A DNA stretch of 64,000 nucleotides from Verrucomicrobiota bacterium (GTDB lineage: Bacteria; Verrucomicrobiota; Kiritimatiellia; SS1-B-03-39; UBA6053), in assembly GCA_020831625.1 (NCBI GenBank), contig JAFIGD010000005.1:1-64000 (forward strand), in the 5' to 3' direction. The position numbers were made by a program, and so were the translations under genes. The notes beneath the pieces are model-generated. The model was not told the origin of the DNA. It did no database searches and saw only the letters and a list, made by a program, of their open reading frames with translations. Below, one piece after another: positions 25,604-33,887 of the stretch (position 1 is the first letter of the stretch; every line of letters begins with the position of its first letter).

Positions 25604-26257
25604 TTAGAGGGCTGTGTAGTTCATCACCGGCAATCCGCCTGACTGAACCCGGACCCGGACAAAACTCACGGTGCGGGCGACGCTTCGGCTCATTCGCACG
25701 GACACATGGGGTTTCACGGGGTCGTGCCAGGCATGAAAGGCATCCAACTCCGCTCCGGTCGGACGGAGGGGATCCCGCACGGTGTCCACATAGTGCGTCC
25801 GCCGGGCGTTTCCAACCGACTCCGGCTCAAAGGAGGAGCTCGTCAACATCGGGAGAGGAACGTCTTGTTCCCGCAATTCCCGGCCGTCCCATTGCCAAAC
25901 CCGTGCGGTATGCTGCAGTGCAATCACCTGGAACGCGTTGTAGCGGTCCAGTGCAACCGCTTGGGTCAGGTGAAATGAAAACGCGTTCAGATCCGCGCAG
26001 TCACTCAGCTCTTTCAGCAACAGTCCGCGACTGCGCAGCGGTCCCGGCGGCGGGGATGTGTACCCGTTGAGCAGGGCGGCGATCAGCCCGTGTCGATTGA
26101 CAAAAATCCAGGTGCCGCCGCCCTGCGGGTCTATCGGATAGGTCGCTCCCTTGTCGTCGGTGTGCGGCGGCAAGGCTGCCGGCCGGCACCGTTGCTCGTC
26201 GCGGTTGAACCACAGTTCGGCGTTTCCCGTTGCCAATCTCCAGGAGGCGGTACACAT
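25604..26257 (-). CDS. NRDE (TANGO2-like) family protein
   Basis: A 217-residue protein of the NRDE/TANGO2 family. It starts with MCTASW and carries the Asn-Arg-Asp-Glu motif (FNRDEQR, residues 18-22) next to a G-G-G-T-W-I segment (46-51). The N-terminal Cys2 resembles an Ntn-hydrolase nucleophile. The biochemical role is unsettled; eukaryotic TANGO2 is linked to heme and lipid handling. It is last in a tight minus-strand run (1-bp gap after the DinB gene). Confidence 0.85.
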   Translation of the reverse strand: MCTASWRLATGNAELWFNRDEQRCRPAALPPHTDDKGATYPIDPQGGGTWIFVNRHGLIAALLNGYTSPPPGPLRSRGLLLKELSDCADLNAFSFHLTQAVALDRYNAFQVIALQHTARVWQWDGRELREQDVPLPMLTSSSFEPESVGNARRTHYVDTVRDPLRPTGAELDAFHAWHDPVKPHVSVRMSRSVARTVSFVRVRVQSGGLPVMNYTAL

Positions 26258-26258
26258 T

Positions 26259-26771
26259 TCAGCGGGTCGCGGGGGTTTTGAGGTGGTGCAGGGTGGAGGG
26301 CGCGTAGCCGAAATTCTCCGGCAGGGCGATGCCGCGCAGATTGCACATTACCCGGATCAGGGCGAAGTGATGAACCGTGTGGGCGATGGCGTAGATCAGC
26401 TCCCTGGCGCGGGAGGAGGGAGCCACGCGTACGGCGTCTTCCTCCACCGCGACACGGTTTCGGATACGGAGAAGATCGTTCTCCCATTCATCAGGCACGG
26501 CGCGGAGAGCTTCCTGCAGTTGTCTCGTTCGCTCCAGTGCGCAGACGCGCGAGGTCTCCACCGCCTTGTCGCGCGGACGCGCGTCATAGTCGAGCAATCC
26601 GCCGGCGGGGGTGTTGAGGATCGGTTCTATGTGTTCGAGAACGTGGCGGAGATGTCCGCCGATACTGGCGTGCATGGCCATGGGCTCCGGCTGGAGATAT
26701 CCTGTATCGTCCAGGGACGTTACGAGGTCTGCGGCTTGATCAAGATAGCGAAGCAAGGTGTTAGATAACAT
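26259..26771 (-). CDS. DinB-family protein
   Basis: A 170-residue helical bundle of the DinB/YfiT superfamily. Candidate metal ligands are His in GGHLRHVLEHIE (residues ~37-45) and the pair in AIAHTVHHFALIRVM (~130), giving the usual three-histidine site. Family members include thiol-dependent transferases using bacillithiol or mycothiol. The start is the ATG at 26771; an upstream in-frame extension overlaps the DedA gene and is not conserved. It is co-directional with DedA, the arsM remnant and NRDE. Confidence 0.8.
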   Translation of the reverse strand: MLSNTLLRYLDQAADLVTSLDDTGYLQPEPMAMHASIGGHLRHVLEHIEPILNTPAGGLLDYDARPRDKAVETSRVCALERTRQLQEALRAVPDEWENDLLRIRNRVAVEEDAVRVAPSSRARELIYAIAHTVHHFALIRVMCNLRGIALPENFGYAPSTLHHLKTPATR

Positions 26772-26784
26772 GTCTTTCCTTCCA

Positions 26785-27288
26785 TCAGAGTTGTAGGAGA
26801 TCGTTACCCATCCATACGGTGAACAGGACAATCAACGGGGCCCAGATCATCACGGCGGGAAGAACGCGGGCGTAGAAGGTTCGCGGCGGAATGCGAAGCA
26901 TCCCGGCGGCGAGATACACGGGGAGTCGGGCCACCGGCACGAAGCGGCTTCCGAAGAGGACCGGCCCGGCATTGCGCTGCAAGCGTTCGCGGGCGCGCTG
27001 AAGTTTGACGGGGTCCGGACGGAAGGGCAGCCAGCGCAGGAAAGACCCTCCCATGCCACGTCCGGCGAAATACAGCAGACTGTCCCCCAGCAGGATGCCG
27101 AGAAAACAGGCGGCGACGGCAAAGCCCAGCGGCAGTTTCTCCGCCGCCACCAGCAACCCGGCGGCGATGGAGGTGATGTCTTCGGACACTTGTGCGGCCA
27201 GCAGAATGACGAACAGGGCTCCCCAAAGGCCGGACGCGGTCAGCGTTTGTGAAATCCGGGCCTGCAGTTCGAAAAGTTGCTCCGTCAT
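26785..27288 (-). CDS. DedA/SNARE-associated family membrane protein
   Basis: A 167-residue integral membrane protein with four to five hydrophobic spans. The DedA signature is FAGRGMGGSFLRWLPFRPDPVKLQRARERLQRNAGPVLFGSRFVPVARLPVYLAAGM, containing the GSRFVPVAR motif of the family. DedA proteins are thought to be lipid flippases or proton-dependent transporters. The start chosen is the ATG at 27288, with GGGCAGG just upstream. It is translated directly after the arsM remnant (10-bp gap), so the two were probably an arsM-dedA operon. Confidence 0.85.
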   Translation of the reverse strand: MTEQLFELQARISQTLTASGLWGALFVILLAAQVSEDITSIAAGLLVAAEKLPLGFAVAACFLGILLGDSLLYFAGRGMGGSFLRWLPFRPDPVKLQRARERLQRNAGPVLFGSRFVPVARLPVYLAAGMLRIPPRTFYARVLPAVMIWAPLIVLFTVWMGNDLLQL

Positions 27289-27298
27289 GGGCCTGCCC

Positions 27299-27490
27299 TC
27301 AGCAACAGCTTCCGGATGCGGGTTTCGGGGCGGTGTCCTGTGGATGCTCACAGGGAAACAGGCCGAAGTGCCGGGTTCTGTCTCCTGAACAGGTGCAGGC
27401 ATTGGTCTTCAGGTCGGCCGATCCCCGCAGGATCTCGCCGTAATATTCCTGAACGCTTTCGTGAAGATTCGGTTGAGGGGAAGTCGTCAT
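27299..27490 (-). pseudogene. arsM: arsM with the methyltransferase core deleted in frame
   Basis: A 63-codon frame. Residues 12-33 (SVQEYYGEILRGSADLKTNAC) match the N-terminus of arsenosugar-pathway arsenite methyltransferases. Residues ~36-63 (SGDRTRHFGLFPC, then a Pro/Ala linker and GSCC) match their C-terminus. The whole SAM-binding and arsenic-binding middle, roughly 250-300 residues, is absent, yet the reading frame is continuous from ATG to stop. The remaining peptide has six cysteines. It could be a neutral scar or, less likely, a small thiol peptide. It lies first in an operon with DedA, DinB and NRDE. Homology is judged by eye. Confidence 0.65.
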
Positions 27491-27590: not shown

Positions 27591-28228
<638 letters not shown>

Positions 28229-28295: not shown

Positions 28296-28835
28296 ATGAA
28301 CATCACCCAACAAGACCTGTATCTCGCCGTTCGGGAATGGTACGACCCGCTTTTCCGCTTCGCGTTGTCGCTGTGCCGGCAGCACGACCGGGCACTGGAT
28401 CTGACCCAGAACGCCTTTCACAAACTGGCGCAGAACCGGGAGAAAGTCCGCGATCCGAAGAAAATCAAATCCTGGCTCTTCAGTGTGCTTTACCGTGAAC
28501 ACGTGGACCAGTACCGGCGCGGGGTCCGCTATCCGAGTCAGTCGCTGGAGGATTCCCCGTAATTGCGCGGAACCGCCGGTCACGGCGGCGAGCTGTCCCA
28601 CGACGCCAAGGTGCTGATGGAAAAACTGGGCGAACTAGACGAAATTTTCCGCGCACCGCTCACCCTGTTTTATCTGGAACAGCTCTCCTACAAAGAAATC
28701 GCGGCGGTGCTGGACATCCCCATCGGCACGGTGATGTCCCGACTGCGCCGCGCCAAGGACCAGCTCCGCGAACGCATGGAGCAGGTCAGTCAACCCGCCA
28801 TCATCCCCTTTACTCAGGAGGTCCGCCATGGATAA
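28296..28835 (+). pseudogene. ECF sigma factor split by an in-frame stop codon
   Basis: The ATG at 28296 opens a sigma-70 region 2 module (WYDPLFRFALSLCRQHDRALDLTQNAFHKLAQN, then KIKSWLFSVLYREHVDQYRRG) that ends at a TAA (28560-28562). The same reading frame continues from a TTG at 28563 with a sigma region 4 module (LTLFYLEQLSYKEIAAVLDIPIGTVMSRLRRAK). No frameshift is needed: a single nonsense codon separates the halves, in the linker where a break would harm folding least. It is either a recent inactivation, a sequencing error or a functional two-piece sigma factor. The second half overlaps the anti-sigma gene by 8 bp. Confidence 0.85.
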
Positions 28836-29562
28836 CCTCACCGCCAAAGAAATTCTCTCCGCCTACCGCCCTGACGGCGCCGACGCCCGCGACCCGGTTT
28901 TTCGAGGCGCGCTGGATCAGTGTCGGAGCGATCCCGCCTTGAAGACCTGGCAGCAGGACCAACAGGCCTTTGATGCCCGCATGTCCGCCACGCTGAACAG
29001 CCTCCGCGCCCCGGAATCGGAAAAAGAGGCTTTGCTCGCCACCCTGAGCCTGAGCACCCAACCCTCGTTTTGGAACCGGGCCCCCCGTCTGCTTCTGCCC
29101 CTGGCCGCAGCCCTGATGCTGGGCTTCGGTCTGCTTGTCCACCGCGTCCGCACCCCGGATCTGATCTGGGAACCCGGGTCCCTGTCCGTGAGCAGCCTCT
29201 CCCGGGACAGCCGTCCGCTGGACTACGAGGCCGGGGACGCGGTCAGCATGAAAGCCTGGCTGGCCGCGCAGGGGGCGCCCGTCCCCGCCTCGCTGCCTCT
29301 GCTGCTGCAAGAGGCGGTGGGCAAAGGCTGCAAACTCTTCGACGACGGTCACGGCAACACCATCAGCATGCTCTGCTTTTCCATCGGCAATGAGATGGTG
29401 CATGTCTTCGTCTTCGACGAGAACACCCGACACTACGTCAATCTTTCCGCCGAACGCTGGCAGACCGAACGCGGCTGGAATCTCCGCGCCCTCCCGCAGA
29501 ACGGGCTCATGCTTGCGATCGCCACCCGCGGCAATCCCGACGCCCTCCATGCCATCTGGTGA
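28828..29562 (+). CDS. Putative transmembrane anti-sigma factor
   Basis: A 244-residue protein with a cytosolic N-terminal part (~85 residues), one transmembrane helix (about 86-106, PRLLLPLAAALMLGFGLLVH) and an exported C-terminal domain ending in LMLAIATRGNPDALHAIW. Its position directly after an ECF sigma gene, overlapping it, with CAGGAGG before the ATG, and its single-span topology suggest an anti-sigma factor. It lacks a clear zinc-binding HxxxCxxC motif, so this is inferred from context. No peptidase site is visible. Confidence 0.7.
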   Translation: MDNLTAKEILSAYRPDGADARDPVFRGALDQCRSDPALKTWQQDQQAFDARMSATLNSLRAPESEKEALLATLSLSTQPSFWNRAPRLLLPLAAALMLGFGLLVHRVRTPDLIWEPGSLSVSSLSRDSRPLDYEAGDAVSMKAWLAAQGAPVPASLPLLLQEAVGKGCKLFDDGHGNTISMLCFSIGNEMVHVFVFDENTRHYVNLSAERWQTERGWNLRALPQNGLMLAIATRGNPDALHAIW

Positions 29563-32867: not shown

Positions 32868-32912
32868 CGCCGTCTTGGACCCGTCAGACCCAAAAGGATG
32901 GAAAGGAACTTT

Positions 32913-33887
32913 ATGACCGACACCCTGGAACGCATCACCGATTTCGAACAAAAGCTCAGCGAGCACCAGCTCCACCTGGAGCGGGGCGCTCCGCGCGTGC
33001 TCCAGATCAATGTGGGCTGGCTCTGCAACCTGAGCTGTGTGCACTGTCACGTCTCCGCCGGTCCCACCCGCAAGGAGATTATGACCCGGGAGACGGTGGA
33101 CCGCATTCTGGACTGGTACGATGAAAACCCCGTGGATGTGGTGGACCTCACTGGCGGCGCCCCGGAAATGAACCCGAACTTCCGTTTCATGGTCACGGAA
33201 TTCAAAAAGCGGCACGCGCATGTGATGGACCGCTGTAATCTGACCATCCTGCTGCAGCCGGGCTACGAAGGCACCGCCGAATTTCTGGCGGAGCACGGAG
33301 TGGAAATTGTCGCCTCCATGCCCTGTTATTCGTCGGAAAACGTCAACGCCCAGCGCGGGAATGGCGTGTTCGATCAAAGCATCGAAGCGCTGCAGCTCCT
33401 CAACCGCATCGGCTACGGGGTCAAGGATGCCCTGAAGTTGGACCTGGTCTACAATCCCAACGGGGCCTTTCTTCCGCCCGACCAGAAAAAGCTGGAGGCG
33501 GCCTACAAACGGGAGCTGCGGGAGCATTTCGGCATCGAATTCCACCAGCTCTACGCACTCACCAACCTCCCCGTGGCCCGCTTCGCGACCTACCTGAAAA
33601 ATCGGGGAAAGTATGAGGACTATCTGGCCCTGCTCGTCGACAGCTTCAACCCGGGTTCCGTGGCCGGCCTGATGTGCCGCGACACCATCAGCGTGGACTG
33701 GCAGGGCACCGTCTTCGACTGTGATTTCAATCAGCAGATGAACATGCATCTGGGGGACAATTTTGCGCCTCTCCGTCTCTGGGAGGTGGATGTGCGCCGC
33801 TGGAAACAAACACCCATCCGCACCGCGCCCCACTGCTTCGGCTGCACCGCCGGCCAGGGCTCCAGTTGCGGCGGCGCGCTGGCGTGA
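32913..33887 (+). CDS. arsS: Arsenosugar biosynthesis radical SAM protein ArsS
   Basis: A 324-residue radical SAM enzyme. The cluster-binding CxxxCxxC is Cys38, Cys42 and Cys45 in WLCNLSCVHCHVSAGP, followed by the SAM-binding VDLTGGAPEMNP. The C-terminal Cys-rich motif HCFGCTAGQGSSCGG (Cys308, 311, 319) identifies the TIGR04167/ArsS family, whose members include selenocysteine variants; this one uses only Cys. ArsS is reported to join dimethylarsenic with the 5'-deoxyadenosyl group of SAM, giving dimethylarsinoyl-5'-deoxyadenosine. I chose the ATG at 32913 because AAAGGAA lies at proper spacing; 32898 abuts its purine tract. It heads an apparent operon with TVP38 and DUF547. Confidence 0.93.
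   Translation: MTDTLERITDFEQKLSEHQLHLERGAPRVLQINVGWLCNLSCVHCHVSAGPTRKEIMTRETVDRILDWYDENPVDVVDLTGGAPEMNPNFRFMVTEFKKRHAHVMDRCNLTILLQPGYEGTAEFLAEHGVEIVASMPCYSSENVNAQRGNGVFDQSIEALQLLNRIGYGVKDALKLDLVYNPNGAFLPPDQKKLEAAYKRELREHFGIEFHQLYALTNLPVARFATYLKNRGKYEDYLALLVDSFNPGSVAGLMCRDTISVDWQGTVFDCDFNQQMNMHLGDNFAPLRLWEVDVRRWKQTPIRTAPHCFGCTAGQGSSCGGALA

Follow-up and report, generated by a model that had tools for sequence, protein, structure and literature searches.

Does a 63-codon frame that resembles only the two ends of the arsenite methyltransferase ArsM represent a broken gene, an assembly error or a small peptide in its own right? The frame lies in a 64,000-nucleotide stretch of DNA (hereafter the window) on contig 59 of a 4.89 Mb Verrucomicrobiota draft genome in 111 contigs, whose fragmentation suggests assembly from a metagenome; it is 96.3% complete and 1.2% contaminated.

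A short frame carries both ends of ArsM

The frame that a sequence-only reading had claimed at 27299-27490 exists, and it lies on the minus strand, which that reading left unstated. This in-frame remnant, here called mini-arsM (27299..27490), runs from an ATG at 27490 down to a TGA at 27301-27299 without internal stops or frameshifts, and its 63-codon product is MTTSPQPNLHESVQEYYGEILRGSADLKTNACTCSGDRTRHFGLFPCEHPQDTAPKPASGSCC. Searched alone against Pfam and NCBIfam, the 63-aa ORF gave no matches. AlphaFold modelling without an alignment returned a pLDDT of 52 and a pTM of 0.19, with one low-confidence helix and the rest disorder; a single-sequence fold is weak evidence, and suggests that the short peptide is probably unstructured.

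We compared the product by BLASTP with ArsM from a genome of the same genus (G001), where the gene is complete at 352 codons. Residues 2-37 match G001 residues 4-36 with 64% identity (E 9e-12) and residues 36-63 match G001 residues 325-352, also with 64% identity (E 7e-11), both matches being collinear and on the same strand. When the 63-aa query was placed against 58 relatives, the N-termini of full-length ArsM aligned to residues 10-38 and the C-termini to residues 34-63, and mini-ArsM keeps the shared residue at all positions where the aligned full-length ends do not vary. The N-terminal part kept spans residues 10-34 (27389..27463, minus strand; HESVQEYYGEILRGSADLKTNACTC), its last residue, C34, being C33 of G001, while the C-terminal part spans residues 36-63 (27302..27385, minus strand; GDRTRHFGLFPC...GSCC). 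Aligned in this way to the full-length protein, the earlier division of the peptide into residues 12-33 and 36-63 proves correct.

The G001 protein was itself identified as ArsM because of its matches in the structure database (5evj, E 4e-98; 4fr0/4fs8, E 1e-93); against the NF008823 model it scores 175 bits, which is under the cut-off of 263. A structure model of this full-length protein has a pLDDT of 81 with low confidence at both termini, and the packing of the two kept ends against each other is not readable from it.

The join removes the catalytic core

Codon-by-codon comparison shows the mini-gene tracking its sister through AAT GCC TGC ACC TGT (N A C T C, the last being C33 of the sister). 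After this TGT comes one TCA codon, whose origin could be from either side, and then GGA, corresponding to G325 of the sister. The deletion junction is thus placed at 27383..27388 (minus strand), in TGT-TCA-GGA (C34, S35 and G36), and sister residues 34/35 to about 324 are gone, amounting to about 290 codons or ~870 bp.

The missing segment holds the SAM-binding motif LDLGCGTGRD, a core present in 7 of 7 aligned full-length relatives and absent from the mini-ORF. It also holds Cys60, Cys155 and Cys205 (G001 numbering), which make up three of the enzyme's four conserved cysteines. Matched by motif and position, these three would be the equivalents of CmArsM Cys72, Cys174 and Cys224 (human Cys61, Cys156 and Cys206), which have been reported as arsenic-binding residues (PMC3877260). 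The first cysteine retained in mini-ArsM is, again from motif and position, the probable counterpart of hAS3MT Cys32, which is reported to lie far from the arsenic atom in a modelled complex, yet to be needed for the first methylation (PMC3877260). Because both the SAM-binding core and three conserved cysteines are absent, mini-ArsM would, by established ArsM biochemistry, be incapable of arsenic methylation; judged from its residues, the product cannot be a methyltransferase, and the known arsenic-ligand set appears to be gone.

Compared with ArsM/AS3MT (NF008823; 5evj, 4fr0/4fs8), the peptide therefore keeps the first about 25-30 and the last 28 residues, with the first conserved Cys, the HFGLFPC motif and the terminal Cys-Cys pair, as well as the gene neighbourhood of its sister, but is without the ~290 codons that carry the SAM-binding motif and Cys60/155/205. 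The earlier proposal, that the two termini of ArsM have been brought together in frame and the catalytic core lost, is borne out both by the two collinear matches and by synteny with the full-length sister gene.

Mini-arsM occupies the place of a full-length gene

Gene order in G001 runs anti-sigma-like, sigma (divergent), arsM, DinB and TANGO2, and in the window anti-sigma-like, sigma, a Phd antitoxin with a toxin-sized ORF, mini-arsM, DedA, DinB and TANGO2. Since the order of neighbours matches, mini-arsM occupies the place of the full-length arsM of the sister. Downstream, on the same strand, are the DinB-family gene (26259..26768, minus strand), whose ortholog directly follows arsM in G001, and the TANGO2/NRDE-family gene (25604..26257, minus strand), ordered as in G001.

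Between these and mini-arsM lies a gene for a DedA/VTT-domain membrane protein (26785..27288, minus strand), the ATG of which is 10 bp past the mini-arsM stop; a ribosome-binding-like GAGG motif upstream of it overlaps the mini-arsM TGA (TGAGGGCAGGCCCATG). In G001 this gene is absent between arsM and dinB. A DedA-like gene is found near dinB in two other genomes of the family (G007 and G010), which suggests that G001 may have lost DedA.

On the other side, the Phd-family antitoxin (27594-27836, plus strand) stands between the sigma gene and mini-arsM and is followed by the toxin-sized ORF (27824-28228, plus strand), a putative toxin by gene order; at the corresponding place in G001 the pair (27594-28228) was not found. 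An in-frame TAA at 28560-28562, absent from the intact G001 gene, interrupts the ECF-type sigma factor gene (28296..28835, plus strand); either this neighbour of arsM is broken as well or the stop is a sequencing error. The sigma gene is followed by its likely anti-sigma or membrane partner (28828..29562, plus strand), which adjoins the sigma gene in both G001 and G056 and whose function is putative. A different family of the class includes three genomes (G056, G312 and G317; loci L036, L137 and L138) in which a related sigma gene and full-length arsM are no more than a few kilobases apart, and this conserved proximity suggests that the sigma factor may regulate arsM. A promoter and terminator scan found nothing.

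A deletion scar is the best-supported reading

Taken together, we consider it very probable that the ORF is a deletion pseudogene, the scar left when a single internal stretch of ~870 bp was lost in frame from arsM (arsenite S-adenosylmethyltransferase). A full-length, functional-looking homolog stands at the syntenic place in the same genus, and no intact copy was found elsewhere in the 96% complete genome. A search of the whole genome with the 352-aa sister protein found no second ArsM, the matches outside the mini-gene being generic methyltransferases only (E 1.7e-4 or worse), and the Pfam and NCBIfam models likewise detected no other ArsM in this genome; possibly, an arsM could lie in the missing part.

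A single internal deletion would have joined the two ArsM ends in frame, probably recently, leaving a remnant that may still be transcribed with dedA-dinB-TANGO2. A random deletion keeps the frame by chance one time in three. Here the frame may have been kept either by this chance or by selection for ribosomes reaching the ribosome-binding region of dedA: translational coupling of the remnant to dedA could protect expression of dedA, dinB and TANGO2. Frame preservation may in this way protect dedA translation, and since such an advantage would act through dedA, no function of the peptide is required.

The age of the deletion was assessed over 27 comparable codons, at which the remnant is identical to full-length ArsM in 22/27 residues for G001, 23/27 for G004 and 23/27 for G005. 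Full-length pairs are no closer over the same codons (G001-G004, 22/27; G001-G005, 20/27), so divergence at the retained codons does not exceed that among full-length relatives, and the deletion looks recent. Against G001 the remnant has a pN of 0.20 and a pS of 0.50, and full-length pairs show the same pattern of pN below pS. These 27 codons indicate either a recent deletion or constrained ends, and fit a newly formed scar as well as they fit a peptide under constraint.

The sequence-only reading had named both a scar and a retained thiol-metal-binding peptide as possible; the former is favoured because the arsenic-coordinating cysteines are deleted, no second mini-gene was found and the sigma gene is also broken, while the latter is neither supported nor excluded. 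The open frame, start codon, gene context and retention of invariant residues count against a scar, as they also fit a retained peptide. In-frame deletion pseudogenes are resembled in the joined ends of one gene, the lack of a detected second copy, the broken neighbouring sigma gene and the failure to find arsM in three further family genomes that carry ArsS; unlike such pseudogenes, the mini-arsM frame is intact and later decay is not yet visible. A full-length arsM in sister strains had been named as counter-evidence to the mini-gene. Such a gene does occur at genus level, in G001, and speaks only against an ancient or shared mini-gene, not against a lineage-specific deletion. If the mini-gene is an ordinary deletion scar, it counsels caution against annotating small ORFs as new peptides.

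Artefact and retained peptide are less probable

The main rival, which we regard as unlikely, is an assembly or binning artefact, whereby an intact arsM is carried by the organism, or by the majority of the sampled strains, and the assembler joined its ends. The fragmentation of the genome into 111 contigs and the complete gene of its nearest relative, G001, at the syntenic place both fit this reading. However, the contig is 152 kb long with gene order unbroken on either side, the join is codon-clean and the missing core was found nowhere else in the genome. Moreover, a breakpoint-repeat search in G001 showed no repeat between the breakpoints of a length that could collapse an assembly graph: the flanking stretches there share a word of 7 bases at most, which lies away from the junction. 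The sister used for this search is only ~65% identical, such that repeats in the lineage of the window may still exist.

We judge it very unlikely that mini-ArsM is a retained small Cys-rich peptide that has lost the catalytic core and serves as a binder of arsenite or thiols or as a regulator of the operon. The in-frame join, the conserved start and end, the five cysteines and the kept downstream operon are what such a peptide would show, and the proportion of nonsynonymous differences is well under that of synonymous ones in the comparison with G001; however, a low pN can date from the full-length era, full-length pairs being alike in this respect. Its candidacy as an arsenic binder is further weakened by the loss of the ligand cysteines Cys60/155/205 and by the reported remoteness from the arsenic atom of hAS3MT Cys32, the likely counterpart of the first cysteine kept (PMC3877260). 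Small Cys-rich metal-binding peptides of the metallothionein-like kind are likewise short, and five cysteines (8%) is a comparable feature, but those of mini-ArsM are at ArsM positions, with one CxC only and no metallothionein-like array, and the peptide is not conserved as a separate gene.

The sequence-only reading had advised looking for the same mini-gene in sister genomes. A search of 345 other class genomes and an exact-pattern scan covering 84,980 genomes each gave no second mini-ArsM. The pattern recovered the window copy as a positive control; the scan is not exhaustive, as the pattern demands the lysine codon AAG and the collection may omit the genome of the window itself. A related-locus scan with the peptide yielded only relatives matching parts of it. 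Two loci considered as possible mini-ArsM relatives (L070 and L071) were rejected, their frames being low-complexity or non-homologous. Conservation of the mini-gene across two or more species, which would mark a retained functional peptide, was thus seen in neither the class scan nor the pattern scan, and the peptide probably has no selected role. We hold it highly improbable that a new 63-aa cysteine peptide is still expressed and has been co-opted as a small factor that binds arsenite or thiols or acts in regulation, in a genome where ArsS persists and methylation has been lost.

Finally, a chance likeness to ArsM, or an unrelated Cys-rich small protein, can be practically dismissed: the frame is short and blank in Pfam and NCBIfam on its own, but the two independent collinear matches (E 9e-12 and 7e-11) are to one protein at the syntenic place, and the full-length gene there refutes it.

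ArsS without detectable ArsM recurs in the family

The window also carries arsS (32898..33887, plus strand), which encodes an arsenosugar-biosynthesis radical SAM protein and is intact, scoring 437.8 bits against TIGR04167 (cut-off 300). ArsS was found above this cut-off in 8 of the 11 genomes of the family, four of which have full-length ArsM of this type (G001, G004, G005 and G008). In the other four, namely the window genome (G000), G003, G007 and G010, ArsM was not found despite ArsS, most family genomes being drafts. Because half of the ArsS-bearing genomes are without detectable ArsM, the gene is patchy in this largely draft-sequenced family and its absence there is not rare. A literature search on ArsM-ArsS arsenosugar operons found nothing usable.

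In this lineage, arsenite methylation has probably been lost while arsS, the arsenosugar radical-SAM gene, was retained. If the loss is real, these bacteria would rely on other organisms for methylated arsenic, or ArsS would have another substrate. The finding of ArsS but not ArsM across several members of a single family deserves more attention than the peptide.

In G145, the C-terminal tail of arsM recurs as a short and nearly identical copy (L139:9890-10030; MLGETRFAKHFKIEGDRSVHFGLFACAPAMDEQGDCVGGGCC). This copy lies downstream of an ATPase-like gene that comes after the intact arsM, and resembles a detached piece of an arsM tail or an insertion footprint.
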